From Theocolax elegans (lineage: Eukaryota > Arthropoda > Insecta > Hymenoptera > Cerocephalidae), in contig CM047426.1 of assembly GCA_026168455.1 (NCBI GenBank), positions 41,992,307-42,056,306 on the forward strand: a stretch of DNA of 64,000 nucleotides, written 5' to 3'. The notes below the pieces were generated by a model. That model ran no database searches and was not told the DNA's origin. It saw nothing but the letters and a program-made list of their open reading frames with translations. Position 1 is the first letter of the stretch, and the number at the start of each line of letters is the position of its first letter. Positions 15,094-59,022 of the stretch are shown here, piece after piece. The position numbers and the translations under genes were made by a program.

Positions 15094-16533
15094 ATGAAAA
15101 TTGGATTGCTGGAGAGGTTAGGTTGTCCACTGGCAAATTGGCGGCTCCTCGACGTTTTTGCACAGTTGAAGCAGCGCCTCTACTGGCTTTCACCGGTGTT
15201 AAGGGGTCAACCTCGTAGAGCACATCTCATCTTCCCCAGGATTCTTCATTTTAACACCGTGGAGAGATGCTGCCGGCTTCGCGCACCACCTGCTTTATAT
15301 GCAGCCGCAGAATTGTTAAAAAAGGACCTGGCAGAGGTATGCTCTCGTTGCGGCAATTTTATACACGCTAATTGTTTCGCGATCCTGCCGGACTCAAACG
15401 AGCCGCGCTGCTGCCGACTGGCAAAGACCGCTGCCTTACCCGCGACTTCTGAGAGGGCAGCACCTTCCGGGACAACGCTTTCCCTAAACGTGCTCGAGTC
15501 AACCGCCGGTCTGCCTGCTACGACCCCCACCACTGGGACGGCCAAGCGCGTCGCCTCGCCCACTTCGCCGCCATGTGCGCAGGTTGCTAAGCAACCTCGC
15601 GGCGCCGCGCCCACCGAGAGTTGCTCCGGCCTACCCGCGCAACAGGCTAATGTCGTCGATATGTCCGCTCTCCTATCCGAATTCGCGAGCCGATTAGAGG
15701 CAAATTTCGAGCGCACAGTCTCGCGCATCGAATCCTCGGTGCAGGGGCTAGCCAGCGAGATTCGCGATCTTAACGCCCGGGTTGCGCAGATGGAAGTGAC
15801 GACCGAAACACGATTTTCCGGTGTCTCGAGCCGCCTGGGAGCGCTTAAAGCAGCAAACGAGGAGATACGTGGCAGATTGAATAATGCACAGACTGTTCGG
15901 TCTTCGTCAGCGGGGTCGTCCTTGACTGCCTCTTCGGATACTTGCGAATTGTTAATTTTAGGCGTTCCTACAAATCTTGCGTTATCTGAGGAGGAAGTCG
16001 TAAGTAAAATTCTCTCAGCCATTGATCTCCCACGTGCCAGCGCGCACGTCATTAGTACGCGCCCTTGGCTTGCTTCGAACAAGTCGGGAGCTAAAAAATC
16101 GGGTCAGGCGAATTCGTCCTCAACTGCAAGCGGCTTTATTAATAATAATTCTAGTTTTAGTCTAATTGATAGTGCTAGTAGTAATAGTAGAGACATTGTA
16201 AGCGTAAGCAAAGGCCTTGTTTTTCGGGTTTCTTCCCCATCAATTAGAGATATTATTTTGGAAAAGGCTCGCCTTTTAAAGGGATTATCTGCAGACTCTC
16301 TCTTTGGTGCGGGAGGAGGCTCATCAATTTTTTTGCGTGCACTCTGGCCCAGGGAGTTGCATGTCTTACTTAGTAAGACATTGCGACGTTCCTTGGACTT
16401 GGGTTTTGCTAGGCCTTTGATAAAGAATTACACGGAATTTTTGAGGAAAACGAAGAAAGGGCAGTTTTTCCCCATTTACTCAGAATCCGATTTGGAAAAA
16501 TTTTCACACATTAATCCATCTCCTCCTCAATGA
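15094..16533 (+). CDS. LINE B ORF1 protein (RNA-binding, PHD-like finger, coiled coil)
   Basis: The 479-residue frame is intact. Residues about 80-107 hold a Cys/His finger (VCSRCGNFIHANC) resembling the PHD-type finger of CR1-like ORF1 proteins. A Ser/Thr/Pro/Ala-rich stretch follows. Residues about 195-270 are a predicted coiled coil with heptads (FASRLEANFERTVSRIE). Residues about 285-450 fit an RRM-like and C-terminal nucleic-acid-binding region (LLILGVPTNLALSEEEVV, ending FFPIYSESDLEKF). Such proteins coat the LINE RNA. The first 60 residues look unlike protein, so the true start may be a later Met. The stop is TGA and ORF2 continues in the same frame. Confidence 0.75.
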   Translation: MKIGLLERLGCPLANWRLLDVFAQLKQRLYWLSPVLRGQPRRAHLIFPRILHFNTVERCCRLRAPPALYAAAELLKKDLAEVCSRCGNFIHANCFAILPDSNEPRCCRLAKTAALPATSERAAPSGTTLSLNVLESTAGLPATTPTTGTAKRVASPTSPPCAQVAKQPRGAAPTESCSGLPAQQANVVDMSALLSEFASRLEANFERTVSRIESSVQGLASEIRDLNARVAQMEVTTETRFSGVSSRLGALKAANEEIRGRLNNAQTVRSSSAGSSLTASSDTCELLILGVPTNLALSEEEVVSKILSAIDLPRASAHVISTRPWLASNKSGAKKSGQANSSSTASGFINNNSSFSLIDSASSNSRDIVSVSKGLVFRVSSPSIRDIILEKARLLKGLSADSLFGAGGGSSIFLRALWPRELHVLLSKTLRRSLDLGFARPLIKNYTEFLRKTKKGQFFPIYSESDLEKFSHINPSPPQ

Positions 16534-17650
16534 AGGTCAACTGGTCAGACGTCATCACCTACTAATAATTCATTCTCCATTTTTCATGTAAATATTAACC
16601 GCCTAAAAACACACTTTTCATCTATTGAATCACTAGTCCTTCCATTGAATCACGATATCATTAGCTTCTCAGAAACTTTTCTCACAGATCATGACTCCTC
16701 CAGCATGCTAGACCTCCCTGGCTACACATTGCACAGATTGGACCGGGTAGGTAAGGAGGGGGGGGGGTGTAGCTGCCTATTTCAGGAGTAATCTTGCTAT
16801 TAGGCTCGTGGCTCACTCTGACCCTGTCTTTTCGAACACCCCGGAATTTTTGATTTTTCAAGTTAATAACAAGGTTAGTTCGCTGCTATTTAGTGTCGTC
16901 TACAGGAGGCCCACAGCGGCCTACCCATCACAATTTTTTGATACGTTAAATAATTTTTTACATACTTGTGACCAAGTAGTCATCACAGGCGACTTTAATA
17001 TTAATATGTGTGGTGGGGACGGGGCGTCCGCCATGCTGGAATCATACATAGCTTCACTTAACCTCTTCCTTATCAAATCGGAACCTACTCATCATGCGCA
17101 TTTCACCAACCATTCATCTCATACCTGGCTGGATTTATTTATAACGCGTAATCCTCCGCCAGATTATTCTTATTTTAAGTCTTCAGTTCCTTTTGCAGCA
17201 GGACATGATTTTATTGTATTGACTTTTGACTTTACGAAACCGTTGTTGGCGGTAAAGAAAATCTGGTCACGGAACCTCGCTGCAATTGATCCGCCAGAGG
17301 CAGCTGCTCTTTTCTCCGTTACTCTAGATCACTTTTTGGCTCATTCTAGCACTGCTACCGAGTCATCATCACCTTCAATTTCACACCCATCAACCTCGTC
17401 GTCTGGCCGTTCACCTTCTTCCTCTCAACTCACGTCAATACCTTGTTCTTCAACCGCCGCTAATATCAACATCCTGATCTCAAGCTTGGTTTCAGCTACC
17501 CTACATACTTTTGACTCCCTCGCTCCCGCCAAACTCACCACCATCAAAAATATCAACAAATCATGGATCACACCTCATATTAAGCGTAACATTAAATCTC
17601 GTAACATGGCATATAAAAGATACTTGGCCACGGGCCTGAGCTCAGACTAA
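16534..17650 (+). pseudogene. LINE B ORF2, endonuclease and linker (one frameshift)
   Basis: ORF2 begins straight after the ORF1 TGA in the same frame, with no Met before the endonuclease block FHVNINRLKTHF (about 16580). ISFSETF, VVYRRPTAAYPS, ITGDFNINM and HTWLDLFIT are the expected EEP landmarks. A run of 10 G at 16758-16767, where 9 would keep the frame, causes one frameshift at the glycine-rich loop; the frame resumes and is open at 16808-17650. It ends at TAA (17648-17650), where LINE C has a Tyr codon. These two changes are the only inactivating lesions I find in ORF2. Confidence 0.8.
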
Positions 17651-19579
17651 CAGAAGTACAGAGATTTGCTGAGTCTGGTTAGAAACGACATAGATTCTAA
17701 TAAATTCTCGTACTATAACAATAGGATCAATTCAGCCTCTAACGCGGCTAATATGTGGAAGGAGCTCAGGACCATGGGCCTCGTATCTAAAACGTTTAAA
17801 TCACCTCTAAGTATTTTTTCACCCGATCAGCTCAATATCCACTATGCTTCCATTTCATCTTCACCCATTCCTTTCACTCATACTCAATTTCAATCTCTCA
17901 TTTCATCAGTCATTTCGCCCTCATCCTACCCATTAATTTCCTTTCACTTTACCCCTACCACATCGCATAAAGTCCTCACTACTATTTCAAAGGCCACCTC
18001 CAAGGCTACGGGGTATGATGGAATCTCTATTCCAATGTTGAAATTATTATCTATTCAATTAGCTCCGCATCTTACAGATCTGTTCAACTTATCTCTCTCA
18101 ACGGGAGTTTTTCCGAAGCCTTGGACTAGGTCTCTCCTTTTTCCTCTAGCAAAGTCGAATAGAGTGGTATCGCCGTCGGATACTAGGCCTATTGCAAAGC
18201 TCTGCGAAGTCTCCAAGATCTTAGAAAAATTAGTTCACGAACAACTTACAGATTATCTTAATGGTAATAATCTAATTATAAAGAGACAGGCAGGCATCCG
18301 CCGGGGGCATAGTACCCAGACGGCGTTGATCGGTGTATTGGACGATGTTAGGAGAGCTATAGACAAGCGAATGATCACCATCTTAATTTTATTCGATTTC
18401 TCGAAAGCGTTCGACTCAGTGCCACATGACCTGATGCTTTGTAAATTACGCACTTTGGGTTGCTCGGACACGGTTCTTTCGTGGTTCTACTACTATCTGG
18501 TTGGACGTTCCCAATCAGTTGTGGATGAGCTGGGGGAGGGTTCGGCCTGGCTTGACACGTCTAGGGGGGTGCCGCAGGGCAGTGTCCTTGGCCCACTCTT
18601 ATTTTCTATTTTTATTAATGACCTCCCGCGGGTGTTAAAACATTCCAATCATATGATTTTCGCGGATGACACCCAAATCTATCACTCGTTCTACCCAACT
18701 GATTTTGCTCAGGGTGTACAAAAGATTTCGGAAGACGCTAATGCGATAAACAACTGGGCGAGATCAAATGGTCTAAATTTAAATGTTAAGAAGACGAAAG
18801 TGATGATTTTGGGAAGTCAGGCTTTCATCTCGCGCATTGACTTTGATTCTGCCCCGAAGGTTTCAATAGAGAATGAATTACTTAACTACGAATCTGAGGT
18901 CAAATCTTTGGGCATATGGATTACACCCACACTGGACTGGTCTCATCAGGTCGCATCTGTGTCACAGCGAGTTCACGGAGTTCTTCACTCCCTAAGATTT
19001 TTTAAAAGAGCGCTTTCACGTCCAAACAGAAAGAGACTCGTCGAAGCTCTAATATTCCCGCATTTCGACTACGCCTGCGCTGTGTACCACGATCTGGATG
19101 CTACCAGAAATTTGAAACTAAAGCGTCTACTAAATGCGTGCGTTCGTTTTGTATGGGGTATTATTCCATGGCGGGAACATGTGACACCGTACCGGCTTAA
19201 GTTAGGTTGGCTGTCGGTCGAGCTTAGAAGATCCCTTTTTATTGCTTCATGTGCATACAATATCATCTCCCATAATTCCCCTTCCTATATATCTAGTCAT
19301 TTCATTATTCGTGACGCTTCATTTCCTGCCCGTTCTTCCTCACGTCTCCCTCCTTCATCCCTTTTTTATCTTCCTCCTCGGACTGAGGCTCTTAACAACT
19401 CCTTCGTTATCACTGCTTCTCGCCTCATCAACCATCTTCCTTTCACAAACTTTGATCCTCTCCTCTTTAATTCTTTCAAAGCCTCACTCCTATCGTATCT
19501 TACTGAGCTCGATCGTCAGACTTGGGAAGCGAGAGTGGTAAATGAGGGAATCGTCTGCCCTTCCCTGCCGGATCTTTGA
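17651..19579 (+). CDS. LINE B ORF2, reverse transcriptase and C-terminal domain
   Basis: The frame is open for over 630 codons and continues that of the endonuclease part. RT motifs in order: ATGYDGISI (about 18010), SDTRPIAKL, RQAGIRRGHSTQTAL, motif A FDFSKAFDSVPHD (about 18391), motif B GVPQGSVLGPLLF (about 18568), and motif C FADDTQIYHS with the catalytic Asp pair at 18665-18670. A thumb and C-terminal region follows to the stop at 19577-19579. All catalytic residues are present. In cells this reverse-transcribes the LINE RNA at a nicked target. The upstream frameshift and stop mean this copy cannot make the full ORF2 without recoding. Confidence 0.85.
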   Translation, partial: QKYRDLLSLVRNDIDSNKFSYYNNRINSASNAANMWKELRTMGLVSKTFKSPLSIFSPDQLNIHYASISSSPIPFTHTQFQSLISSVISPSSYPLISFHFTPTTSHKVLTTISKATSKATGYDGISIPMLKLLSIQLAPHLTDLFNLSLSTGVFPKPWTRSLLFPLAKSNRVVSPSDTRPIAKLCEVSKILEKLVHEQLTDYLNGNNLIIKRQAGIRRGHSTQTALIGVLDDVRRAIDKRMITILILFDFSKAFDSVPHDLMLCKLRTLGCSDTVLSWFYYYLVGRSQSVVDELGEGSAWLDTSRGVPQGSVLGPLLFSIFINDLPRVLKHSNHMIFADDTQIYHSFYPTDFAQGVQKISEDANAINNWARSNGLNLNVKKTKVMILGSQAFISRIDFDSAPKVSIENELLNYESEVKSLGIWITPTLDWSHQVASVSQRVHGVLHSLRFFKRALSRPNRKRLVEALIFPHFDYACAVYHDLDATRNLKLKRLLNACVRFVWGIIPWREHVTPYRLKLGWLSVELRRSLFIASCAYNIISHNSPSYISSHFIIRDASFPARSSSRLPPSSLFYLPPRTEALNNSFVITASRLINHLPFTNFDPLLFNSFKASLLSYLTELDRQTWEARVVNEGIVCPSLPDL

Positions 19580-19982: not shown

Positions 19983-21037
19983 CAGCAGCACTTCCCGGGA
20001 CGGCACTTTCGGATGGTGAGCTCGCGTCGAGTGGCAAACAATCTATTGGGACCCCCACCACTGGGACGGCCAAACGCGTTGCCTCGCCCACTTTGCCGCC
20101 ATGTGCGCAGGTTGTTAAGCAACCTCGCAGCGCCGCGCCCACTGAGAGATGCTCCGCCCTACCCGCGCAACAGTCTAGTACCGTTGACATGTCCACTCTC
20201 TTTTCCGAATTCGCGAGCCGGTTAGAGGCCAACTTCGAGCGCACGGTCTCGCGTATCGAAACATCGGTGCAGGGGCTGGCCAGCGAGATCCGGGATCTGA
20301 GCGCCCGGGTTCTACAAATTGAAGCGGCGACGGATGAAAGATTTTTCGGCGTTCCGGACCGGCTAGGAGCGCTGGAGGCAGCGAACGAAGAAATCCGTGG
20401 CATGATTGGTGACGCAAATAACAGCCGGTCATCATCGGCAGTGTTGACGATAGTAGCCTCTTCGGATACCTGTGAAAGATTATTGTTGGGCATCTCTGCA
20501 GATCTAGCCTTGTCAGAAGAGGAGGCCGTCGAAAAGGTTTTATCAGCCATCAATCTCCCACGTGTCTGCTCACAAGTGGTTGGTATTCGTCCATGACTCG
20601 TTCGGAACAAGCCGGGAATTCAAAAGTCTGGACCGGCGAATTCGTCTTCGACTGCTAGCGGTACTAATATTAATTTTAATCTTAATAATAATAATGATGG
20701 CGATAATATCAACAAGGGAATTGTTTTCCGGGTTTCCTCCCCATCAATTAGGGATCTTGTTCTAGAGAAGGCTCGCCTTCTCAAGGGTTTATCAGCGGAT
20801 TCCCTCTTTGGTGCGGGTGGAGGCTCGTCGATCTTTTTACGTGCGTTCTGGCCCAAGGAGTTACACGTCCTATTAAGTAAAGCGCTGTGTCGTTCCGTAG
20901 ACTTGGGTTTCGCTAGGCCTTTTATTAAAAATTACACGGTGTTTATGCGGAAAACGAAGGGAGGACAGCTCTTTCCGATTCACTCTGAATCTGACTTAAT
21001 TAATTTTTCAAACCTTAATTCGTCTCCTTCTCAATGA
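19983..21037 (+). pseudogene. LINE C ORF1 (5'-truncated, one nonsense codon)
   Basis: This is homologous to LINE B ORF1 from its Ser/Pro-rich part onward, with the coiled coil (SEFASRLEANFERTVSRIE) at about 20203-20400 and the RRM-like block near 20480. TGG in LINE B is TGA here (20594-20596), a single nonsense change; the same frame then runs on to the shared final TGA (21035-21037). Ends with FPIHSESDL…SPSQ. Confidence 0.8.
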
Positions 21038-23971
21038 AGGTTGTCTGGTCAGACGTCATCATCTACTAACAATTCATTCTCCATTTTTCATGTAAATATT
21101 AACCGCCTAAAAACACACTTTTCATCTATTGAATCACTAGTCCTTCCATTGAATCACGATATCATTAGCTTCTCAGAAACTTTTCTCACAGATCATGACT
21201 CCTCCAAATGCTGGGCCTTCCTGGCTACATCTTACACAGATTGGACCGGGTGGGTAAGGAGGGGGGGGGGTGTAGCCGCCTATTTCAGGAATAATCTTGA
21301 TGTTAGGCTAGTGGCTCACTCCGATCCTGTCTTTACCAACACCCCGGAATTTTTAATATTTCAAGTTCATAATAAAATCAGTACGCTGCTATTTAGTGTT
21401 GTCTACAGGAGGTCCACAGTGGCCTACCCATCACAATTTTCTGATACGTTGAATAATTACTTACATACATGTGACCAGGTCATCACCGGCGATTTTAATA
21501 TTAATATGTGCAATAAAGATGGGGCGTCCGCCATGATGGATTCATATTTAGATTCATTAAACCTTTTCCTCATCAAATCTGACCCTACACATAATACGCA
21601 TTCAACCACCCATTCATCTCATACCTGGCTTGATTTATTTATAACACGTAATCCTCCGCCAGTCTATACTTATTTTAAGTCATCATTTCCCTTTGCCGCT
21701 GGACACGGCTATATTGTACTACCTTTTGATTTTATTAAACCATTGCCGGCTGTAAAGAAGATTTGGTCACGGAACCTTGCTATAATTGATCCGTCGGAGA
21801 CAGCTGCTCTTTTTTCCGATACTTTTAATCATCTTTCAGCTCACTCATACACTACCACTGTGTCGTCTTCGCCATCAATGTCTCACCCTGCAACCATGTC
21901 GTCTGGTCGTTCACCTTCCTCCTCACAACGTATGCTGATGCCTTGTTCTTCATCCCCCACTACCATCAACATTTTACTCTCAAACCTGGTTTCAGCTATC
22001 CTGCATACTTTTGACTCACTCGCTCCCGCCAAACTCATCACCATCAAAAATATCAACAAATCGTGGATTACACCTCACACTAAACAAAGTATTAAAGCTC
22101 GTAACATGGCGTATAGAAGATACTTGGCCACTGGCCTGAGCTCGGATTATCAGAAGTACGAAGATCTACGTAATCTTGTTAGAAATGGCATAGACTCCAA
22201 TAAATTTTTATACTATAATAACAAAATCAAATCGGCCTCTAACTCGTCTAGTTTGTGGAAAGAGCTCAGGAACATGGGTCTCGCGTCTAAAACATCTCAA
22301 TCACCTCTCAATTTTTTTTCACCTGATCAGCTCAACACCCACTACGCTTCTATTTCATATTCACCCTGTCCTTTCACTTTTACCCAACTTCAGTCTCTCA
22401 TTTCATCAACAGACATTTTATCCTCATCTTATCCATTAACTTCCTTTCACTTTGCCCCTATCACCTCGCATAAAGTCCTGTCTACTATTTCAAGGGCCAC
22501 CTCCAAGGCTACTGGTTATGATGGAATTTCTATTCCAATGTTGAAACTGTTGGCTGCTCAATTAGCACCCCATCTTACTGAATTATTTAACTTATCTCTC
22601 TCAACGGGAGTTTTTCCGAAGCCTTGGACTAGGTATCTCCTTTTTCCTTTGGCTAAGTCGAACAGAGTGATATCGCCGTCTGATACTAGGCCCATAGCAA
22701 AGTTCTGTGAAGTCTCCAAAATCTTAGAAACATTAGTTCATGTACAACTCACAGAATATCTTAACAGTAATAATTTAATTATTGAGAGACAAGCGGGCTT
22801 CCGCCGGGGGCATAGTACCCAGACGGCTCTGATAGGTGTCTTAGATGACATTAGGAGAGCCATAGACAAGCACATGATCACCATTCTCATTTTCTTTGAT
22901 TTTTCAAAAGCGTTTGATTCGATGCCACATGACTTGATGCTTAGTAAATTACGCTCTATTGGTTGTTCGGATACGGTTGTCTCTTGGTTCTACCATTATC
23001 TGGTTGGCCGTACTTAATCAGTGGTGGATGATCTGGGGATGGGCTCGGCCTGGCTCGACACGTCTAGGGGTGTGCCATAGGGCAGTGTCCTCGGCCCATT
23101 TTTACTTTCTATTTTTATTAATGACCTCTCGCGAATTTTAAAACATTCTGACTATCACTCGTTTTATCCAACCGATCTTGCTCAGGGTGTACAAAGAATT
23201 TCGGAAGACGCTAATGCAATAGACAACTGGACGAGATCGAATGGTCTGAATCTGAATGTGAAAAAGACGAAGGTGATGATCTTAGGCAGTCAGGCTTTTA
23301 TTTCACGCATTGACTTAGATACTGCCCCGAAGGTTTCAATAGGGAATGATATCCTTAACTAAGAATCTGAAGTTAAATCTTTGGGCATATGGATTTCACC
23401 CACCCTGGACTAATCTCGTCAGGTCGCATCTGTGTCGCAGTGAGTTCATGGAGTTCTTCACTCCTTAAGATTTTTTAAAAGAGCGCTTTCGCGTCAGAAC
23501 AGAAAGAGCCTTATCGAAGCTATAATTTTATCGCATTTCGACTACGCCTGCGCTGTTTTTTACGACCTGGATGCTACCAGGAATTTAAAACTACAGCGTC
23601 TATTAAATGCTTGCGTTCGTTATGTGTGGGGAAATATTCCGTGGCGCGAACATGTGACACCATACCGTTTTAAGCTGGGTTGGCATAAATCACCTTCCTA
23701 CATTGCCCGCCACTTCATTCTCCGCGATGCTTTATTTCCATCGCGTTCTTCCTTACCTCTCCCATCCGCATCCCTTTTCTATCTTCCTCCCAGGACAGAG
23801 GCCCTTAATAACTCCTTCATTATCACTGCCTCTCGCCTTATTAATTACCTTCCTTTCACTAATTTTGACCCTCTCCTCTTTAGTTCATTCAAATCATCAC
23901 TCTCATCGTATCTATCTGAGCTCGATCGTCAGACTTGGGACGTGCGAATGAGAAATGAGAGAATTGCCTGA
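21038..23971 (+). pseudogene. LINE C ORF2 (endonuclease + RT, catalytic box deleted)
   Basis: The frame is open from directly after the ORF1 TGA to 23017 (about 658 codons) with the endonuclease landmarks (FHVNINRLKTHF, ITGDFNINM, HTWLDLFIT) and RT motif A (FDFSKAFDSMPHD). Relative to LINE B, CAA became TAA (23015-23017) and CAG became TAG in motif B (about 23080). About 30 bp around 23150 are missing in frame, removing the FADD residues. More stops follow at about 23361, 23410 and 23440, and about 66 bp are lost near 23683. In the endonuclease, a one-base loss is compensated by one extra G in the run at 21250. The protein is certainly inactive. Confidence 0.85.
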
Positions 23972-25107: not shown

Positions 25108-25159
25108 TTTTTTGGTAGAATTAACGATTGCTTTAACGAGTCAATTTGATTGTCTAATT

Positions 25160-25201
25160 GCACAACGTTTCGGAGACATATTTGTCTCCATCTTCAGGTG
25201 C
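25160..25201 (-). ncRNA. Hammerhead-like ribozyme motif, PLE B outer end
   Basis: On the minus strand the order is GCAC, CTGAAGA, T, GGAGAC, a 6-base loop, GTCTCC, GAA, ACGT, T, GTGC. This gives stem I (GCAC/GTGC), the CUGANGA core, stem II (6 bp), the GAAA core and a minimal stem III made from the self-complementary ACGT. One extra T before stem II departs from the strict consensus. Penelope elements are known to carry small type I hammerheads that may act as dimers. Activity is unproven. Confidence 0.6.
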
Positions 25202-25824
25202 TAAACTTTATTAATAATAATTACTAATATTGAATACATAATGGTCAACAACAAAAAGATTTTTACCTTAACATTACACAATGCGTTTATCAACTTGTCA
25301 TTAATTCAGCCTGTCATTTTGTATCTATGAATAATTACAATAAATTATTAATTATTTATTATAGCAACAAGAATGAATAATTAATTAACTAAACACTCAC
25401 AGAAGTTGGAAAGCAATAAGAGTCACATTTTTTCTTCCTTTTCATTTTAATTACAATTAATACTCAATTAAAACTCGAAAATTAAATAAATTAAGTAAAA
25501 TTAAATAATTTAAATAAATTAAACTAGTAAACAAACAATTCCAAATATCACAACAGAAAACAATATAAATTATACACGGAACGAAACATTCACTGTGAAA
25601 GCTGTATACGACTGAAAACAATTTAAATTCAAACATAAATATGACTAGAAAAATGATCGATAATATAGAAACCTATATAGTTAACTAAGTAAATGGAAAT
25701 CGGTAATCCAGAAAATTATAAAACGCGCAATATTTGAAACCAATTAAAATTATTTATGTCAGAAGAAAAATTTTATATAAAGTAAATATGAGTTAAAAAT
25801 GTGACTCCATCAACCCATCGTATT
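25202..25824 (-). other. PLE B 3' non-coding region
   Basis: AT-rich sequence without coding capacity lies between the stop of the PLE B protein and the hammerhead-like end. It is mirrored at 28369-28991 in PLE C. Confidence 0.6.
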
Positions 25825-27006
25825 TTATTTCTTATTTTTAAACTTATGTATAAGAGTTGTATATGTTGCCTGTAGTTTACTGACATCTTCTTTTTTATTA
25901 ATAGGCTCTTTTTGTAAATTAATATGTAGGGTTTCTGAAACCATTCTTTTTCTCCAATTAATCTCCCTATCAAGAATACTAACATTATCAAAATCAAATT
26001 TGTGCCCTAAATCATTAATGCGATCATTAATCACACATTGTTTATCCTGTTTCAAACTATTATTGTAGTGTTCATTTATTCTTGTTATTAATTTTCTCTT
26101 AGTTTCTCCAACATAGGAGGCCTCGCAGTTATTACAATTGATCTTATAAACTACACCAGACTGCTCAGTTTTTTTAGTTCTGTCTTTTCCTCTCCTTATA
26201 ATTTTACCAAATGAGTTAACAATTCTCGGAATTGTGGTAATATTAAATTTTTTAACTTTCTTCGAAACATCCTCAAACAACTTTGGTATGTAAGGTAAAG
26301 ATAAAGATACTCCTCTCTTTTTGTTTGTATTATTAACATTCTGAATGTTTGTACAATTTTTATTTATATTATGTTTAATTTGAATTCGTTTGTGTATATT
26401 ATTGTTTATAAATTTGGGAGGATAATTATTTGCGAGTAATATAGTTTTCACCATTTCTAGGTTTTTTTTATGAAATTTTTTATCAGAGAGAAGAATAACT
26501 TTATCAACCAATGAATAAACCATAGCTTTTTTCTGCGAAATTGGATGTTTAGATAAATAATTCAACACTCTACCAGAGAAGGTTGGTTTATGGTACCAAT
26601 CTATTACAATATTATTTTTCTCTTTAATTATTTTAATTTCAAGAAAATTAATTGAATTATTTTTTTCTCTTTCACATGTAAATTGTAGCTTCTTATGGTA
26701 TGAGTTAAAAACATGTATCATCTCATCCAACTTATTTTTAGGAACTATTGTTAAAATGTCATCTACATATCTATAGTATATTAATGGTTCAAAACTCAAT
26801 TTTTTAATACATTCTTCTTCCAAATCTTCCATCACCATGTCAGAAAAAATGGGAGAGCAAGGACTACCCATCGGTGTACCATGCACCTGTTGGAAATATT
26901 TATTATTAAATTGAAAAAAAGTATTATTTATCAAAAAATCAGTAGCATCTAAAAGATCATGTAGCGGAATATTGAATTTATTAAAAACTAAGTAAGAGAA
27001 TAACAA
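25825..27006 (-). CDS. PLE B: 5'-truncated Penelope RT plus GIY-YIG endonuclease
   Basis: The 393-residue minus-strand frame is intact. It has motif B VHGTPMGSPCSP (residues about 41-52), motif C YYRYVDDIL with the catalytic YVDD at 26769-26758, and the Penelope block VIDWYHKPTFSGRVLNY. A basic linker and a GIY-YIG nuclease follow (GVVYKINCNN, ASYVGETKRKLITRINEH, residues about 287-320). Motif A, which holds the first catalytic Asp, lies upstream of the truncation and is absent, so the RT is incomplete. The displayed first Met is at the truncation junction and is not a natural start. Confidence 0.85.
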   Translation of the reverse strand: MLFSYLVFNKFNIPLHDLLDATDFLINNTFFQFNNKYFQQVHGTPMGSPCSPIFSDMVMEDLEEECIKKLSFEPLIYYRYVDDILTIVPKNKLDEMIHVFNSYHKKLQFTCEREKNNSINFLEIKIIKEKNNIVIDWYHKPTFSGRVLNYLSKHPISQKKAMVYSLVDKVILLSDKKFHKKNLEMVKTILLANNYPPKFINNNIHKRIQIKHNINKNCTNIQNVNNTNKKRGVSLSLPYIPKLFEDVSKKVKKFNITTIPRIVNSFGKIIRRGKDRTKKTEQSGVVYKINCNNCEASYVGETKRKLITRINEHYNNSLKQDKQCVINDRINDLGHKFDFDNVSILDREINWRKRMVSETLHINLQKEPINKKEDVSKLQATYTTLIHKFKNKK

Positions 27007-27007
27007 A

Positions 27008-28368
27008 GAGAATTAATTTTGTATTAAAAAACAGCTTAAAAACACCTAAATCTCATATTTTAAATAGTATTGAGTTGTCGAAAAAGATAAGAAATTTAGT
27101 TATACCGAATGACCATATAATGATTAGTTTAGATGTAGTGTCTTTGTTTACGAACACCTCGTATGAATTAATAAAAAATAGTATTGAAAAGAGACATAGC
27201 TTAGTTTTTAATAAATTCAATATTCCGCTACATGATCTTTTAGATGCTACTGATTTTTTGATAAATAATACTTTTTTTCAATTTAATAATAAATATTTCC
27301 AACAGGTGCATGGTACATCGATGGGTAGTCCTTGCTCTCCCATTTTTTCTGACATGGTGATGGAAGATCTGGAAGAAGAATGTATTAAAAAATTGAGTTT
27401 TGAACCATTAATATACTATAGATATGTAGATGACATTTTAACAATAGTTCCTAAAAATAAGTTGGATGAGATGATACATGTTTTTAACTCTTACCATAAG
27501 AAGCTACAATTTACATGTGAAAGAGAAAAAAATAATTCAATTAATTTTCTTGAAATTAAAATAATTAAAGAGAAAAATAATATTGTAATAGATTGGTACC
27601 ATAAACCAACCTTCTCTGGTAGAGTGTTGAATTATTTATCTAAACATCCAATTTCGCAGAAAAAAGCTATGGTTTATTCATTGGTTGATAAAGTTATTCT
27701 TCTCCCTGATAAAAAATTTCATAAAAAAAACCTAGAAATGGTGAAAACTATATTACTCACAAATAATTATCCTCCCAAATTTATAAACAATAATATACAC
27801 AAACGAATTCAAATTAAACATAATATAAATAAAAATTGTACAAACATTCAGAATGTTAATAATACAAACAAAAAGAGAGGAGTATCTTTATCTTTACCTT
27901 ACATACCAAAGTTGTTTGAGGATGTTTCGAAGAAAGTTAAAAAATTTAATATTACCACAATTCCGAGAATTGTTAACTCATTTGGTAAAATTATAAGGAG
28001 AGGAAAAGACAGAACCAAAAAAAACTGAGCAGTCTGGTGCAGTTTATAAGATCAATTGTAATAACTGCGAGGCCTCCTATGTTGGAGAAACTAAGAGAAA
28101 ATTAATAACAAGAATAAATGAACACTACAATAATAACTTGAAACAGGATAAACAATGTGTGATTAATGATCACATTAATGATTTAGGGCACAAATTTGAT
28201 TTTGATAATGTTAGTATTCTTGATAGGGAGATTAATTGGAGAAAAAGAATGGTTTCAGAAACCCTACATATTAATTTACAAAAAGAGCCTATTAATAAAA
28301 AAGAAGATGTTAGTAAACTACAGGCAGCATATACAACTCTTATACATAAGTTTAAAAATAAGAAATAA
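27008..28368 (+). pseudogene. PLE C: Penelope RT plus GIY-YIG, one frameshift
   Basis: This copy extends further 5' than PLE B: open reading from about 27008 includes motif A, MISLDVVSLFTNTSYE (about 27120-27165). Motif B reads VHGTSMGSPCSP (Pro to Ser relative to PLE B) and motif C YRYVDDIL is intact. An extra A in the run at about 28017-28024 shifts the frame, ending the long frame at 28028; the other frame then carries the GIY-YIG nuclease (AVYKINCNN, ASYVGETKRK) to 28368. The element is 5'-truncated, and no start codon can be assigned. Confidence 0.85.
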
Positions 28369-28991
28369 AATACGATGGGTTGATGGAGTCACATTTTTAA
28401 CTCATATTTACTTTATATAAAATTTTTCTTCTGACATAAATAGTTTTAATTGGTTTCAAATATTGCGCGTTTTATAATTTTCTGGATTACCGATTTCCAT
28501 TTACTTAGTTAACTATATAGGTTTCTATATTATCGATCATTTTTCTAGTCATATTTATGTTTGAATTTAAATTGTTTTCAGTCGTATACAGCTTTCACAG
28601 TGAATGTTTCGTTCCGTGTATAATTTATATTGTTTTCTGTTGTGATATTTGGAATTGTTTGTTTACTAGTTTAATTTATTTAAATTATTTAATTTTTCTT
28701 AATTTATTTAATTTTCGAGTTTTAATTGAGTATTAATTGTAATTAAAATGAAAAGGAAGAAAAAATGTGACTCTTATTGCTTTCCAACTTCTGTGAGTGT
28801 TTAGTTAATTAATTATTCATTCTTGTCGCTATAATAAATAATTAATAATTTATTGTAATTAATCATAGATACAAAATGACAGGGTGAATTAATGACAAGT
28901 TGATAAACGCATTGTGTAATGTTAAGGTAAAAATCTTTTTGTTGTTGACCTTTATGTATTCAATATTACTAATTATTATTAATAAAGTTTA
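28369..28991 (+). other. PLE C 3' non-coding region
   Basis: AT-rich mirror image of 25202-25824, with a few substitutions and no coding frame. Confidence 0.6.
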
Positions 28992-29033
28992 GCACTTGAA
29001 GATGGAGACAAATATGTCTCCGAAACGTTGTGC
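28992..29033 (+). ncRNA. Hammerhead-like motif, PLE C outer end (core C3 lost)
   Basis: The layout is the same as at the PLE B end (GCAC … GGAGAC/GTCTCC … GAA ACGT T GTGC), but the core reads TTGAAGA instead of CTGAAGA. The C3 residue, which pairs with G8 in the active site, has changed to T. Catalysis should be strongly reduced or absent in this copy. Confidence 0.55.
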
Positions 29034-29111
29034 AATTAGACAATCAAATTGACTCGTTAAAGCAATCGTTAATTCTACCAAAAAATACAACTCACGAGTG
29101 TGAAATACAAT

Positions 29112-41799: not shown

Positions 41800-43020
41800 T
41801 ATTAAAAAAAAGGGCAAATAAACATATGTGTACGATGCCACTACTCAAATGTTACTTCGAAAAACGAGAATTTTAATCGTTTATAATTCCAATACAGCAG
41901 AAAACAGCAAACAAAATACTACAAGGCACGCTCCCACGTTTGCTTATTCGCGGGAGCGTGCCGCGCGGTGTCGAATATATTTTCTGCGGTAAAATTAAAA
42001 TGCATTTAGTGTATAAAATGGGCAAATAAACATAAGTATATGATGGCATTAGTCACATGATACATCCAAGCCAAGAAATAATTTTTTAATATTTTATAAT
42101 TCCGATTAAGGTGAAATCGACGCTCAGAACACTACGAGGCACGCTCCCACGTTGCTTATTCGCGGAAGCGTGCCGCGCGGTGTCGAATATATTTTCTACG
42201 GGAAAATTAAAATACATCAAGTATATAAAATGGGCAAATAAACATACATATATGATGGCATTAGTCACATGTTACATCCAAGCCAAGAAATAATTTTTTA
42301 ATATTTTATAATTTCGATTCAGGTGAAATCGACGCTCAAAACACTACGAGGCACGCTCCCACGTTTGCTTATTCGCGGAAGCGTGCCGCGCGGTGTCGAT
42401 TATATTTTCTACGGTAAAAAATAAATTTTTTGAGTCACTAAAATGGGCGAGAGGAGATATATTCTTGTCTTAACTATTCAAGTTTTACTTCCTAGCAGTT
42501 TAAACAATTTTTAACCGTTTGCAATTGCCGATTCAGTCGAAATTCCCAACCAGAACATTACGAGGCACGCGCCCGCGTTTGCTCATTCGCGGGAGCGTGC
42601 CGCGCGGTGTCGATTATATTTTCTACTGTAAAAAATAAATATTTTGAGCCACTAAAATGAGCGAGAGGACATATATTCCTGTCTTAACTATTCAAAATTT
42701 ACTTTCTAGCATTTTTAACAATTTTTAGACCGTTTGCAATTGCTGATTTAATCGAAATTCCCAACCAGAACACTAGGAGGCACGCTCCCGCGTGTGCTCA
42801 TTCGCGGGAGCGTGCTGCGCGGTATCGATTATATTTTCTACAGTAAAAAATAAATATTTTAAGCCACTAAAATGAGCGAGAGGAGATATATTCTTGTCTT
42901 AGCTATTCAAAATTTACTTTCTAGCATTGTTAACAATTTTTAGACCGTTTGCAATTGCCAATTTAGTCGAAATTCCCAACCAGAACACTACGAGGCACGC
43001 TCCCGCGTTCGCTCATTCGA
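41800..43020. repeat. ~213-bp satellite, six units, each with a strong hairpin
   Basis: The block GGCACGC starts at 41925, 42138, 42350, 42564, 42779 and 42994, giving periods of 212-215. Each complete unit forms a stem of up to 14 bp (GGCACGCTCCCGCG … CGCGGGAGCGTGCC) with a loop of about 9-10 bases, followed by GCGCGGTGTCGA. The sixth unit is cut in its hairpin at 43019, where the ribozyme-bearing unit begins. The spacers are AT-rich and diverge into two subtypes (units 1-3 and 4-6). Confidence 0.9.
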
Positions 43021-43024
43021 CATA

Positions 43025-43603
43025 TTGGCTTGTAAAGATCAATAAATTCAGTTATCATATAACTTATAGTGTAAGAAAGCAATAAATTCACGAATTTTTC
43101 TAATAGTTGGAAAATTCAAACTTTAAAATTATATGGCATTGGATCACGAATATGCCTTATGTAACAATATTCTGACGATTAAGACATTAGTTCTATGTAA
43201 GTGCGTTAGGGGGCTACCTGTTAATATGTGGCACTTATTAAATTTTGCTATCGGTAGGGCATATATACCCCATGTTTTCCTCGTCAGAATACAGCTGGTT
43301 TTCAAACATTTTTATATCTGTCATTTGTATCTAGAGACGAGACGCCTGGACTCTACTGATGAGCCCACCAGGCATACTCAGGGCGAAATACAATTTTTTT
43401 TCCGTCTTATTAAGTTTTTATTAATTTTATACTACAATCAATTAAATTTTATATATTTGTTGACCTAGCTTGGCTTAGTCTTTTTTCAAACACTCATCCT
43501 GTGAGGTTTTTAAAGTGGCTGGTATTAATACAGTCCGCCTTACTTGAGTTGTGAGGAATGTTTCTTTGGCTTGTAAAGATCAATAAATTCAGTTATCATA
43601 TAA
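43025..43603 (+). mobile_element. Unit bounded by 38-bp direct repeats and carrying a ribozyme
   Basis: TTGGCTTGTAAAGATCAATA and the following 18 bases occur identically at 43025-43062 and 43566-43603, 541 bp apart, each containing an AATAAA signal. A consensus type III hammerhead lies between them at 43325-43393. No protein is encoded. The arrangement recalls retrozymes or Penelope-derived terminal repeats, but identity with either is an inference. Confidence 0.5.
43325..43393 (+). ncRNA. Type III hammerhead ribozyme
   Basis: Parts in order: stem III 5' strand TTGTAT (43325-43330); cleavage-site C17 (43331); stem I TAGAG (43332-43336) with a 14-base loop and CTCTA (43351-43355). Next come core CTGATGA (43356-43362), stem II GCCC (43363-43366) with a 14-base loop and GGGC (43381-43384), core GAA (43385-43387), and stem III 3' strand ATACAA (43388-43393). 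Every conserved core residue is present and A15.1 pairs with U16.1. Loop 1 GCCTGG (43344-43349) is exactly complementary to loop 2 CCAGGC (43368-43373), giving the stabilising loop-loop contact. Predicted to self-cleave after 43331. Confidence 0.85.
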
Positions 43604-43674
43604 TATGGTTTGGAGTTGAAAAATTAATATTATAGTGTGAGTTTATGCTACTATCGATGGCATTTAAAAATCTT

Positions 43675-43863
43675 TCACCGTGGGTGTCTCAGTGTTGCAG
43701 TTCCATGTGGGTGGTGGGCATTGAAGTTTCCCATGACGATGGTGTGGTTGTTTGAATCAATGACTATGTCGATTGCAGTTAAAAGTTTGGTAAGTTCTTC
43801 TTTTCGTTGGTTTAGATTTCGGGCGTTCCAAAAGAGTATTTTGAGTTCAATTGAATCCATTAT
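43675..43863 (-). pseudogene. Jockey-like LINE endonuclease remnant, internally deleted
   Basis: The minus strand reads MDSIELKILFWNARNLNQRK, the opening of a Jockey-type EEP endonuclease. It passes after about 33 residues straight to IVMGNFNAHHPHG, a block normally well over 60 residues further on. The middle of the domain has been lost in frame. Confidence 0.65.
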
Positions 43864-45430
43864 TTTGTAACGTTTTCTTTTATTTTAAATATATATGCTT
43901 TTTCGATGACTTTAAACTTGTTGACAATCCGATTCATAATCGGTTTGCGTTTGTTATAATTCGATAGAAGATTCTGAGGTTTCTTGAGTATTATTTAAAA
44001 TTTCTTTGATTTTTTTTATTTAGGTGAATTTGGTTCTAATTTTTTTGTCCGTAATGTGAGAGTACAATATATCCAGCGTGTTTATTATGCTTGATTTCTC
44101 GTTTGGATCGATCATTGTATTTTTAAAGAAATCTTGATTGGTTAGGCTATTTGATATAAATTCAAAAAACTTGAGAGACTAGTGGAATAGAGGTACTGTG
44201 ATCTTAAAAAATTGTGTCAGCAGATTTTTTATTTTTCTAACGATCAATTATTTGGCGTCATTTTGCTTGTATTCAACTTTTATGCACTTTGGCATTTTTT
44301 TGTTTTTTTTCGAAAGTTTAATTTACAATAGTTTCAGAATCTTCAGAACTTGTGGCAATTAAGGGAAAATCATTTAGATTTATATTCCCAGGCAGAAATT
44401 AAACCAATTAGAAGAAAATAATAAAAATTAATAACTGTTTAAAAAAATTAAAAAAAATTAAAAAAAATTATTAATGTCTAGATTTGAGACAAGTAAAAAT
44501 AGTTATTCATTTTTATCAATTTTCATAAAAATTGTTGTTAATAGTTAATAATTTTTTATAATTTAAAACAGCATTGTAAACAAATGTATGAGTGTATGTG
44601 ACCAATTAAACCAATTAGAAGAAAATAATAAAAATTAATAACTGTTTAAAAAAATTAAAAAAAATTAATAAAAATTATTAATGTCTAGATTTGAGACAAG
44701 TAAAAATAGTTATTCATTTTTATCAATTTTCATAAAAATTGTTGTTAATAGTTAATAATTTTTTATAATTTAAAACAGCATTGTAAACAAATGTATGAGT
44801 GTATGTGTGTAAAAGTAAATTAAATTAATAGTAAATTATTATAAATTAGGGTAAAAAGTGACGATTTCACAAAAAGGATAAAAGTAAGAAAAAATTATAA
44901 AGAAAAATAAAATCTTCAATTTATTATAAAACTACAATAATGAACCGAAAAAATTAATAATAGTTATTAATTAATTAAATTTTGTTGTCAGACTGATATA
45001 CTCATGATTCAAGAAAAAAGTACTAAAAATTAATAAAAAGTAATAAAAATTAATAAGAGTTTCTAAATGTTATCAATTGTCTCAAATCTAGACATTATAT
45101 ATTATTATTAAAAGTTAATAATTTTTTATATTTTTTCTTATTTCCGCCTGGGTTTTGATTTTGATTTTCGAGAGACGAGGTGTTTACCGTACTTGGCATG
45201 TGAATCGTATTTGAGAATCCGCTGTTCGAGGAGAAGATATGACTTTTAATTCCAGTTTTTCTATCGTTGAGAGAGGTTTCGTGGTTAAGGTCAATATGAG
45301 ACTTTGTTTGAGCGATATTTGGAAAATTATCTTGGCTCTTGAGATTAGAATTTTCATAGTTATCGTTGGTAATTATGTTTACGTTTGGGCATAATTTCTA
45401 GAAGTGACCGGCTTATTTACGTAGAAAGCA
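43864..45430 (-). pseudogene. Jockey-like LINE ORF1 remnant, split by an inserted element
   Basis: Upstream of the endonuclease on the minus strand, 45430-45153 reads a zinc-knuckle vestige (CFLRK, AGHF, KLCP) followed by an Asn/Ser-rich tail. After the inserted element (44387-45152), 44386-43864 reads a Ser/Asp-rich acidic start (SSEDSE) and Lys-rich sequence with many stops. Order and strand fit the ORF1 of the same Jockey-like element. Heavily decayed. Confidence 0.5.
44387..45152. mobile_element. AT-rich terminal-inverted-repeat element with internal duplication
   Basis: The ends read CCCAGGCAGAAAT and ATTTCCGCCTGGG, and related sequence extends inward over about 100 bp (both arms include ATGTCTAGATTTGAGACAA). 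Inside, about 207 bp are duplicated in tandem (44401 onward and 44608 onward) with almost no differences, so the duplication is recent. No transposase. The target duplication is unclear. Confidence 0.7.
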
Positions 45431-45797
45431 AGTAACCGAATCCGCAGTTAGGTATGTCCAATATGTAATATTTAGGTGAATTATCGGTAATGATTCTGAA
45501 AGATTTTATTCATAGTTCTCCTTTATTTAAAATTGTCTTTTAAATAACATTATATGCGTTTTACTAGAGCTTGCACGTATTGAAGAAATTTAGGAGTTTA
45601 CATAGATGCTTTTAATTTTTTATGCTTCGAATATTGTTGGGAATGCACGGGTGTAAATTAGAGATTACGATTCTTAAGTTACTACTAATAAGAGGTCAAA
45701 TAGGTAAAGCAAGGTCTTTGAATAACTTTATTTTTGAGTGTTTCAGCTATAGATGAGGAATTTAGATATATATATATTGTGACTACCTAATATATAT
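45431..45797. other. AT-rich spacer before the gypsy element
   Basis: No gene recognised. It ends in TATATAT directly before the LTR. Confidence 0.4.
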
Positions 45798-46775
45798 TGT
45801 GACGGAAATCGTCACACAATCTATTCACGACGAATAGAGTACTTAAATTCGCGAATTGTAAGTCGTCGGAGCCTTTCGTATGTCAAGGCCAACCGACGAC
45901 ACTTGTTTACTTTCCTACGAGTGTACAATTACGCGCGCGACTATACGTAGGGATGGGAGCGCGAAAGTGTGTGCGAGTTTCCCCACTCCCATCCCTTTTT
46001 CGAGAAATTAGGCGTTCGCCTAATCAGTGTGTAATGATCCGTCGATCGGGACGGATTATTATCTAGTCTATACGTTCTGTACTGCTCGTGAATTGCCGAG
46101 AGTACATACCACCCATCTCTGTAATAAGTTCCGTGAACGGTTGTTCCGGAGCAGAGCTAAGTGCGGAGACCCGGGTGGATACACGCGTGTCCGTATAGTT
46201 TTGTGTGTGCTTGTGTGTGTGTGTGTATCAAGGACGGGGTCGTGCGCGGGTGATACTGCGGATCGCGACTCACTCGCCGCGGAAAGGGCCGCCTTCACCA
46301 CCTCAACCACCGGTCGTCCCCTTGTCAAGGAGGTCGACCAGTCGCCGAGGATCGGCTGGGCCATCCCCGAGGAGCGTCACCGGTAAGTGAAAATTTGCTA
46401 TCGTGACCTTCCCCCTCCCTTGTGTGTGTGTGTGTACCTCGGGAGTGTGTTCGAGCACACGGCCTGAGTGGCCATTTTGTTAATTATTTTAATTAAATAA
46501 ATATTTCTTTTATTTTTTTATTCTAATCATTGTGTGTTTATTTCGTTCTCTCCGCTCCCGCCGACATCCTTTAATTTTTTATAAATCGTGTCGAGGCAAG
46601 GAGGATTGCCCAAATTCTCCACACCGATCGTCTCAGCGAACTCGCGTTCCTGGCGTCAGCCGCAGTTCGGATAAATAAATTAATTGTGTACGCGGTATTG
46701 GGCAATGCGGCCCAACGGTTAATTTAATTATTAAAAAATAATTAATCAGTCCGGGTACGTGAATACCACGTCACA
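45798..46775 (+). repeat. 5' LTR
   Basis: The LTR starts TGTGACGGAAATCGTCACAC and ends CACGTCACA, with inverted termini TGTGACG/CGTCACA. It is 978 bp and collinear with the minus-strand LTR at 7435-9921. Its first 170 bp are nearly identical to 57573-57742. AATAAA-type signals lie at about 46494 and 46672. Frames of about 100 codons here are chance. Confidence 0.85.
46378..46390 (+). promoter_or_regulatory. Splice donor inside the LTR
   Basis: CACCGGTAAGTGA contains a near-perfect donor (G/GTAAGT, GT at 46383). The minus-strand LTR keeps it as GACCGGTAAGTTA (about 7937). It may feed the acceptor in front of the third ORF. Confidence 0.5.
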
Positions 46776-52450: not shown

Positions 52451-54000
52451 ATAATTGAGATACAGGACGACCAGCGGAAACAAGTCAAAGAGTTTGTTGA
52501 AAACCTACTCTTGCCCTCGGGAGACGTCCACGGCTTTACGACGTTAACGGAGCACCACATAGAGGTTGAGCCTGGTGCAAGACCGGTTCGTCATAAGCCA
52601 AGACGTATGTCTCCCAAGGTCCTCGAATTTGCCCAGGGTGAGGTCAAAAAGATGTTTGACAAGGGCATTATTGAACCGCGTGCGAGTGATTGGTCAGCTG
52701 CTCCGGTCATCGTCCGCAAGGGCGAAGGAAGTTATCGCTTCTGTATCGATTTTCGAGACCTTAATGCAGTCACAAAACGTGATTCTTCTCCAATTCCTAA
52801 TATGGATACCATATTGGATAAGCTGCATAATGCAAGGTACATATCAAAAATCGATCTTAAGAAAGCGTACTTATAAATATAATGGCCGAGGCGAGCCGGC
52901 ATTAACTGCATTTGCTGTACCAGGGTCGGGCTGTGGCAGTTCAACGAGAATGCTTTTGGCCTCATGAATTGCTCCTATGACCTTTGCACGGCTTATAGAT
53001 TGCATTTTCGGGCCTAAGGTGGAACCTATGTGTTTTGGTTATCTAGACGACTTGATCGTCATTACCGAAAACTTTTGAGGACCATCTAAACGTTGAATGA
53101 CGCTGGACTCGAGGTGAATCGAGATAAGTGTGAGTGTGTCAGCCAGCACCACATAGAGGTTGAGCCTGGTGCAAGACCGGTTCGTCATAAGCCAAGACGT
53201 CATGTCTCCCAAGGTCCTCGGAATTTGCCCAGGGTGAGGTCAAAAGATGTTTTGACAAGGGCATTATTGAACCGCGTGCGAGTGATTGGTCAGCTGCTCC
53301 GGTCATCGTCCGCAAGGGCGAAGGAAGTTATCGCTTCTGTATCGATTTTTCCGAGACCTTAATGCAGTCACAAAACGTGATTCTTCTCCAATTCCTAATA
53401 TGGATACCATATTGGATAAGCTGCATAATGCAAGGTACATATCAAAAATCGATCTTAAGAAAGCGTACTTATAAATATTAATGGCCGAGGCGAGCCGGCA
53501 TTATACTGCATTTGCTGTACCAGGGTCGGGGCTGTGGCAGTTCACGAGAATGTCTTTTGGCCTCATGAATGCTCCTATGACCTTTGCACGGCTTATAGAT
53601 GCAATTTTCGGGCCTAAGGTGGAACCTCATGTGTTTGGTTATCTAGACGACTTGATCGTCATTACCGAAACTTTTGAGGACCATCTAAACGTTGAATGAC
53701 GCTGGACTCGAGGTGAATCGAGATAAGTGTGAGTTTTGTTGTTCCAGCGTAACGTTCCTTGGGTACAAATTGGACGCGGACGGCTTGAGGCCTGACGAGG
53801 AACGAGTCGCTCCAGTCCTTAATTACCCTACTCCTCGTAATGTCAAACAGCTGAGATCCTTTCTCGGGATGGTAGGCTGGTACTCTCTATTCATTAATCG
53901 AGAAGCTGACATTAAAGCTCCCCTTACCAAGTTGCTGCGTAAAGACCAGGCTTGGGATTGGGGCGAGGAGCAGGAGGAGGCGTTCTGTCAGCTTAGAGTT
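52451..54000 (+). pseudogene. pol: reverse transcriptase, with a 594-bp tandem duplication
   Basis: RT landmarks are HHIEVEPGARPV, FDKGIIEPRASDWSAAPVIV, YRFCIDFRDLN, SKIDLKKAYL and, in the second duplicate, FARLIDAIFG with the catalytic GYLDDLIVIT at about 53637-53666. A TAA follows KKAYL in both duplicates. The RT connection part (FLGYKLDADGLRPDEERV, FLGMVGWYSLFI) follows at 53754-53900. The duplicated block makes the order RT-RT, which cannot be translated usefully. Confidence 0.85.
52551..53734 (+). repeat. 594-bp tandem duplication inside the RT
   Basis: 52551-53144 is repeated at 53145-53734, from AGCACCACATAGAGG to AGATAAGTGTGAGT. The two copies differ almost only by single-base insertions and deletions, many in homopolymers, and very few substitutions. 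Confidence 0.85.
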
Positions 54001-57569: not shown

Positions 57570-57572
57570 CTT

Positions 57573-58032
57573 TGTGACGGAAATCGTCACACAATCTATT
57601 CACGACGAATAGAGTACTTAAATTCGCGAATCGTAAGTCGTCGGAGCCTTTCGTATGTCAAGGCCAACCGACGACACTTGTTTACTTTCCTACGAGTGTA
57701 CAATTACGCGCGCGACTATACGTAGGGATGGGAGCGCGAAAGAAAGTACATTAGAATAAATTCTATCTTCTAAAACTTTATTTCTTTTCTTTCTTTGTTA
57801 GGATAAGAGTCGAAACCCTACACTTACCTACACACAAATATATTACGAACTGCTACTAAGATGGCAAGGCGCGCATCTTAGTATTTTGTTTCGTATCACA
57901 CATAACACAACCAATATTAATAATAAGAAAACTGACATATTAAGGTGCCCTAAAGAGAGCAAGGTTCGTCTCTTTAGGTTCTCCAACACTTCTAAAGTTC
58001 AGGTCCGTGATGTAAGAAATGTGTACGTCACA
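57573..58032 (+). repeat. 3' LTR, shortened or hybrid
   Basis: 57573-57742 matches the first 170 bp of the 5' LTR almost exactly. From 57743 the sequence is different until an end GTACGTCACA (58032) that again looks like an LTR terminus and is followed by ATAT. At 460 bp it is half the length of the 5' LTR. It may be a hybrid of two LTR variants or a deletion filled with other DNA. Confidence 0.6.
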
Positions 58033-59022
58033 ATATATATATATATATGGGCTATTTCACGTCAAGTGGTACGATGAAAATTTTAAATCGCTCCAAAATT
58101 TGAGAACAGGCTGGAAATTTCTTCAAGAAGATAGAAAAAAAATTTTAGGTGTTAAAAATAATTTGCCTAAGAGTTATTCCACCATGAAAAATGGAAATTT
58201 TTCAATTTTTTAGAAAATTTTCTATTTTCAAAGCCATTTATCTCAAAATCTATTAATTTTTTTGAAAAAACATTACAAACAACTTTTGTTCAAAATAATC
58301 TTTAGAACTTATCTACCTGGGTTACAATTCTTAATTTTAAAATCTCGAAGAGATAGGGCACTTGGAAATATTGAGTATCAAAAAAAGGCGACCACGCCAC
58401 AATCGATTTTGATCTAACACTGCTCAAAAGATCACATTTTTCGAGAGCTTTCGAATGGCGGCGGTTAGATTATTGGCCAAGACCGCTGGTGTAAGTTATG
58501 CCTCATAAACCTCATAAAATCACTAATTTTCATGTATTTTAGGGCATAACCTACAACAGCGGTCTTGGCCAATAATCTAACCACCGCCATTCGAAAGCTC
58601 TCAAAAAATGTGATCTTTTGAGCGGTGTTAGATCAAAATCGATTGTGGCGTGGTCGCCTTTTTTTGATATTCAATATTTCCGGGCGTTCTATCTCTTCGA
58701 GATTTTAAAATTAAGAATTGTAGCTAAGGTAGATAAGTTCTAAAGATTATTTTGAACAAAAGTTGTTTGTAATGTTTTTTCAAAAAAATTAATAGATTTT
58801 GAGATAAATGGCTTTGAAAATAGAAAATTTTCTAAAAAATTGAAAAATTTCCATTTTTCATGGTGGAATAACTCTTAGGCAAATTATTTTTAACACCTAA
58901 AATTTTTTTTCTATCTTCTTGAAGAAATTTCCAGCCTGTTCTCAAATTTTGGAGCGATTTAAAATTTTCATCGTACCACTTGACGTGAAATAGCCCATAT
59001 ATATATATATATATATATATAT
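58033..59022. mobile_element. Near-perfect ~950-bp palindrome (MITE)
   Basis: From GGGCTATTTCACGTCAAGTG (58047) the sequence mirrors itself around about 58525, ending with the reverse complement at about 58996, with (TA)n on both outer sides. The arms are about 455 bp, separated by about 40 bp. It lacks coding and belongs to the family seen in part at 9955 and 31381. TA flanks fit a Tc1/mariner-like MITE, but the site lies in TA repeats. Confidence 0.85.

Follow-up and report, generated by a model that had tools for sequence, protein, structure and literature searches.

A complete type III hammerhead motif, predicted to cut itself and likely pseudoknotted, in a small candidate insertion of the Theocolax elegans genome

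Does the hymenopteran Theocolax elegans carry a type III hammerhead ribozyme, and in what kind of sequence would it lie? The question is raised by 69 bases on the + strand (43325-43393) of a 64,000-nucleotide stretch of this genome, which we analysed as a whole and call the window. An earlier note on this DNA had described these bases as a consensus type III hammerhead whose two loops could pair. We are fairly confident that they represent a complete type III hammerhead, predicted to cut itself and likely pseudoknotted, within a small non-autonomous insertion.

The anatomy of the motif can be read directly from the bases. Stem III consists of six perfect pairs between TTGTAT (43325-43330) and ATACAA (43388-43393) and stops there, as the neighbouring bases 43324 and 43394 are T and T. 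C17 follows at 43331, and, judged by its place in the motif, a + strand transcript would cut itself between 43331 and 43332. The five pairs of stem I, all Watson-Crick, join TAGAG (43332-43336) to CTCTA (43351-43355) around loop I, which has 14 bases (ACGAGACGCCTGGA, 43337-43350) and includes GCCTGG at 43344-43349. The catalytic core CTGATGA (43356-43362) leads into stem II, in which GCCC (43363-43366) forms four Watson-Crick pairs with GGGC (43381-43384), closing a second 14-base loop (ACCAGGCATACTCA, 43367-43380) with CCAGGC at 43368-43373; the core resumes with GAA (43385-43387), followed by A15.1 at 43388. The motif thus contains the core CUGAUGA...GAA, the A15.1-U16.1 pair, an H17 and three helices, and its topology is that of type III, with helix III open and helices I and II closed by loops. 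Its cleavage triplet ATC (AUC) and its box GAAAT (GAAAU) match the RUH triplet and GAAAY box given as the hammerhead consensus in the text of PMC7936874. The earlier note proved right base for base, both in the core residues and their coordinates and in stems III, I and II of 6, 5 and 4 pairs without mismatch; the complementary hexamers it had placed in the 14-base loops are there as one exact pair. No second hammerhead was detected in the 64-kb window by regular expression or by Rfam search to E 1, methods that minimal variants may escape.

As a check, the earlier note had proposed an Rfam hammerhead III search of the window. RF00008 (Hammerhead_3) aligned to 43324-43394 over its full length, model positions 1-54 of 54, but the score of 34.5 bits lies under the curated gathering score of 48.5 bits, which nothing in the scan reached. 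The match has an E-value of 0.0012 in the 64-kb window and 5.4e-6 in 276 bases, each against 4227 families. To calibrate the score, we took eight viral-contig loci, picked by length from 24 type III hammerheads found by descriptor. RF00008 matched five of the eight, with best scores of 49.2, 47.5, 41.6, 38.4 and 30.4 bits, and gave no match in the other three. Only one calibration locus reached the cut-off, and four of the five matched ones missed it. Since these loci span a similar range, the 34.5 bits of the window motif are unremarkable. The bases at 43325-43393 are likely a member of the hammerhead family by these sequence measures, the cut-off being a curation threshold.

The hexamers that could join the loops sit close to the stems: a single base separates GCCTGG from the 3' side of stem I, and likewise CCAGGC from the 5' side of stem II. 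Together they offer six Watson-Crick pairs by which loop I could reach the bases that follow the 5' strand of stem II. A 6-bp loop-loop pseudoknot of this kind would likely keep helices I and II side by side. In the text of PMC3088659, natural hammerhead pseudoknots are described as joining loop I to bases immediately downstream of stem II. The predicted pairing, from the 3' part of loop I to bases just 3' of the stem II 5' strand, follows the same strand path, which counts in favour of the pseudoknot. In a type II hammerhead of that study, cleavage became about 20 times slower when six such pairs were reduced to four, and recovered with a compensatory change (PMC3088659). Any hexamer match between two 14-base loops has a chance of 0.03, and one within one base of both stems a chance of 0.0015; by itself, the loop contact is only moderately unlikely by chance and adds a modest factor.

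We also compared loop pairing with that of other hammerheads. A broad hammerhead pattern returned at least 120 stretches in viral contigs, and a strict descriptor applied to the loci among the matches listed yielded 24 distinct type III hammerheads. Pairing of at least 4 bases between loops occurred in three of the 24 (shuffled mean 1.3, maximum 5), and none reached 5. This control does not support the loop contact, and it is a poor match for the window motif, its loops being mostly shorter.

Predicted folding presents a competitor. The pseudoknot-free minimum free energy (MFE) structure of the 69 bases is a different fold of -16.9 kcal/mol, whereas the nested hammerhead comes to -9.0 kcal/mol, and it pairs GCCTGG...CCAGGC, the very hexamers of the pseudoknot, as a plain hairpin. 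The stability of this MFE fold is nothing unusual (z -1.54), with 17 of 200 shuffles folding equally well. Adding the hexamer helix (-10.1 kcal/mol) to the nested hammerhead gives about -19 before any kissing penalty, which brings the two forms near parity. The predicted pseudoknot-free folds of three longer stretches contain the GCCTGG...CCAGGC hairpin and lack the hammerhead. Upstream of the ribozyme motif lies a perfect 11-bp inverted repeat (TATTCTGACGA/TCGTCAGAATA, 43168-43178 and 43281-43291); one of the predicted folds pairs bases from its right arm with GACGAG (43336-43341) and may thus represent a competitor.

How does the motif compare with published type III hammerheads? According to the text of de la Pena et al. 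2021 (PMC7936874), pseudoknotted type III hammerheads occur in toad and termite delta-like RNAs, and the antigenomic ones were shown to cleave, with kobs of 0.05 and 0.96 per min for toad and termite, respectively. Similar hammerheads are reported there from the genomes of the termites Coptotermes formosanus and Cryptotermes secundus, as isolated motifs with no recognisable ORFs nearby. Type III hammerheads with stable pseudoknots are described from Drosophila pseudoobscura, an example the paper attributes to Perreault et al. 2011, and structurally similar ones from Rhagoletis, Musca and Hermetia (PMC7936874). The window motif resembles this insect and delta-like subgroup in its type III topology, the 5-bp first stem of helix I and a Watson-Crick contact between the loops of helices I and II, and it resembles the termite motifs in being isolated, without a recognised ORF nearby. 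It differs in other respects: as described in the text of PMC7936874, helix I of the subgroup is longer, with an internal loop and an apical hairpin, stem II has 6 bp, and the helix I loop makes a GCCR/YGGC contact from its 5' side, whereas in the window motif the 14-base loop is plain, stem II has 4 bp and the contact, of 6 bp, is on the 3' side. Compared with that text, the apical hairpin, the 6-bp stem II and the GCCR/YGGC contact are all absent from the window motif. Because it lacks this defining architecture, the motif falls outside the subgroup, though it would work alike. It also resembles the pseudoknotted hammerheads, of types I to III, of Perreault et al. 2011 (PMC3088659), in which loop I contacts bases just downstream of stem II, through six pairs in the tested case; that case is a type II metagenomic ribozyme, whereas ours is type III and lies in an insect genome.

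The earlier note had considered a type III hammerhead notable in an arthropod. That holds in part: termite and dipteran examples are already published (PMC7936874), but the host order is likely new, as are the compact loops. Within the text of a mainly open literature (including PMC7936874, PMC7229834, PMC7761336, PMC10886601, PMC4918200 and PMC8256844), we found no report of a hymenopteran type III hammerhead. A structure search for the longer architecture yielded none in hymenopterans, hemipterans or a cockroach, according to the text of PMC7936874. By its sequence, the window motif would be a pseudoknotted type III hammerhead in a likely new insect order, and not a new class.

The surroundings of the motif suggest what may carry it. 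An exact 38-base direct repeat, a candidate target-site duplication or terminal redundancy, is found at 43025-43062 and again, identically, at 43566-43603, the two copies spaced by 541 bases. Between them lies a candidate insertion of 503 bases and 34% GC (43063-43565, + strand) that includes the ribozyme motif. We found no longer repeat beyond the 38 bases: the downstream flanks score 19, a value reached by 27 of 300 shuffles, and the upstream flanks 12. Nor did we find further copies within the 64-kb window, where the matches to 43000-43700 are the segment itself, the 38-mer and chance stretches that are short or AT-rich. The motif probably sits in a small mobile insertion, a reading that builds on this one repeat pair, and we infer that the insertion is non-autonomous. 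Cleavage would then define an RNA end of its transcript, the role that hammerheads have in retrozymes and delta-like RNAs. An array of 212/215-bp units, satellite-like and containing inverted motifs rich in GC (GCACGCTCCCGCG...CGCGGGAGCGTGC), occupies 41807-43019 and ends just before the left repeat.

The repeats fit either a target-site duplication or a circle of 541 nt with terminal redundancy. The former fits because animal retrozyme duplications exceed 4 bp (PMC7229834) and one in Nematostella measures 15 bp (PMC4918200), as far as the text of these papers goes. The latter, a retrozyme-like circle, is weakened because the 541-nt unit is 59% paired and not unusually self-paired (z -0.8; 20 of 100 shuffles as stable), whereas published retrozyme RNAs are predicted to be more than 70% paired in the text of PMC4918200. 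Viroid-like self-pairing of the unit was sought and not found. For comparison, eight stretches were sampled at regular intervals between 38001 and 47291; four of these had z below -3, and one of the eight overlaps the unit.

Known retrozymes match the locus in some features only. With plant LTR retrozyme and viroid hammerheads it shares type III topology and a 4-bp stem II, but the plant ones have a 6-bp stem I, a 6-8 nt loop, a 4 nt loop II and non-Watson-Crick contacts, unlike the window motif (text of PMC7936874). In plant retrozymes, two hammerheads lie within LTRs of 300-400 bp and target duplications measure 4 bp, as described in PMC4918200; here we find one hammerhead and only a 38-base repeat. 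With animal non-LTR retrozymes the locus shares a non-coding, GC-poor unit some hundreds of bases long and duplications above 4 bp, while their hammerheads are type I and mostly tandem, and ours is type III and single (PMC7229834 and PMC4918200, in the text of both). The type I tandem of those elements is absent here, and pairing stands at 59%, not above 70%.

Penelope-like elements were considered as hosts and rejected: 43000-43700 resembles the Penelope-like copies of the window by short chance matches only, and neither the regular expression nor Rfam to E 1 reveals a second ribozyme, although a minimal variant may escape both. Hammerheads of such elements are minimal type I motifs in terminal repeats, and the window motif is not of this form. 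The Penelope-like copies themselves (25108-29085) are two, inverted head to head, and share 98.9% identity across 1886 bases; both strands carry reverse transcriptase frames. Elsewhere in the window, tandem LINE-type elements at 15522-19211 and 20050-23684 are 82% identical over 3694 aligned bases, the first with a reverse transcriptase frame of 642 aa. Within a gypsy-like pol region, about 590 bases are directly duplicated at 97% identity (52551-53135 and 53145-53734). The window also holds a large palindrome of about 980 bases, 95% identical to its own reverse complement (58033-59012), and a dispersed 171-base repeat, 99.4% identical, with copies about 12 kb apart at 45797-45967 and 57572-57742. 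Downstream of the right 38-base repeat, on the - strand, a frame remnant at 43620-43870 resembles the N-terminus of a LINE-type endonuclease; it has an apparent internal deletion and does not extend over the ribozyme motif.

Organism names among the matches listed for these elements number 29 for the Penelope-like reverse transcriptase (120 of 416 matches listed), 24 for the LINE-type reverse transcriptase (120 of 7775) and 18 for the gypsy-type integrase (120 of 154). By a count by eye, all 71 named matches among those listed belong to genera that we take to be hymenopteran, including Temnothorax, Solenopsis, Neodiprion, Trichogramma, Leptopilina, Phymastichus, Microctonus and Osmia, among others; the remaining ones, including the best-scoring, are unnamed. 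These matches point to a hymenopteran host as likely, with the reservation that transposons may pass between species, and so narrow the arthropod-type genome that the earlier note had inferred.

Searches for relatives of the ribozyme covered viral contigs and bacterial and archaeal genomes. A pattern of the core plus stem II matched 10 stretches in viral contigs, which by eye were unrelated outside the pattern. The only match to a pattern reaching into loop II, the viral locus L011, was without GGGCGAAA in the following bases shown and was set aside as a chance match. Twenty-seven bases of the 38-mer had no match in viral contigs, nor did one exact pattern in bacterial and archaeal genomes. 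Covariation is absent because the motif is single copy and no homologue was found in these collections.

Could the motif be an accident of random sequence? The sub-threshold Rfam score and the failure to find a conserved homologue among viral contigs and bacterial and archaeal genomes would be compatible with this, but the expected numbers make it extremely unlikely. A descriptor with at least 4 pairs in stem I, 4 in stem II, 5 in stem III and loops up to 30 had no match in 144 Mb of sequence simulated with the dinucleotide frequencies of the window. An independence estimate gives 3.8e-8 motifs expected in the window on both strands without counting the loop contact, and about 2e-5 per Gb with it. 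We therefore reject a chance origin on the simulation and this estimate, in agreement with the earlier note, which had called the chance co-occurrence of these features very unlikely. Its identification of a type III hammerhead whose loops could form a pseudoknot is likewise backed by the anatomy, Rfam and the chance estimates.

A rather unlikely alternative is that a once-active hammerhead persists in an old insertion, now mainly as the GCCTGG...CCAGGC hairpin and hardly cleaving in the cell. The predicted folds do contain the hairpin, whether the 69 bases or the three longer stretches are folded, and the window holds one copy of the motif; an old relic would not, however, favour the retention of every core residue and stem pair, or 38-base repeats that are still identical. 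The motif could also be an endogenous piece of an integrated delta-like circular RNA that kept its ribozyme, given that delta-like RNAs of termites and toads have pseudoknotted hammerheads of type III and that similar ones are isolated in termite genomes (PMC7936874, text). This we regard as very improbable: a look through the ORFs of the window by eye turned up no delta-antigen-like frame, and the unit, at 541 nt, has a third of the length given for delta-like RNAs in that text (1,500-1,700 nt) and is not strongly self-paired. Our preferred reading, a predicted self-cutting and likely pseudoknotted type III hammerhead in a small insertion, is supported by the exact anatomy, the full-length RF00008 match with its calibration-range score, the low chance expectation, the flanking 38-base repeats and published insect relatives with a similar overall form, of which two delta-like examples were shown to cleave. 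It is weakened by the sub-cut-off Rfam score, the different MFE fold and the control without enrichment of loop pairing. Overall, the motif is probably an active ribozyme by sequence criteria.

Going further, a hymenopteran lineage of type III hammerheads with compact kissing loops might drive a mobile unit, processed to a 541-nt circle and reverse-copied at just over unit length, which would leave the 38-base redundancy. We consider this distinctly unlikely; if true, the 541-nt circle unit would be an animal counterpart of the plant type III retrozymes. A well-formed copy in a hymenopteran genome would extend the known insect range of type III hammerheads, and its compact 6-bp contact would offer a clean case for how loop pairing activates the core. 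Type III is the form of viroids, plant retrozymes and some delta-like RNAs, and this locus provides a defined place for asking whether insect type III hammerheads travel on mobile elements or on circular RNAs.
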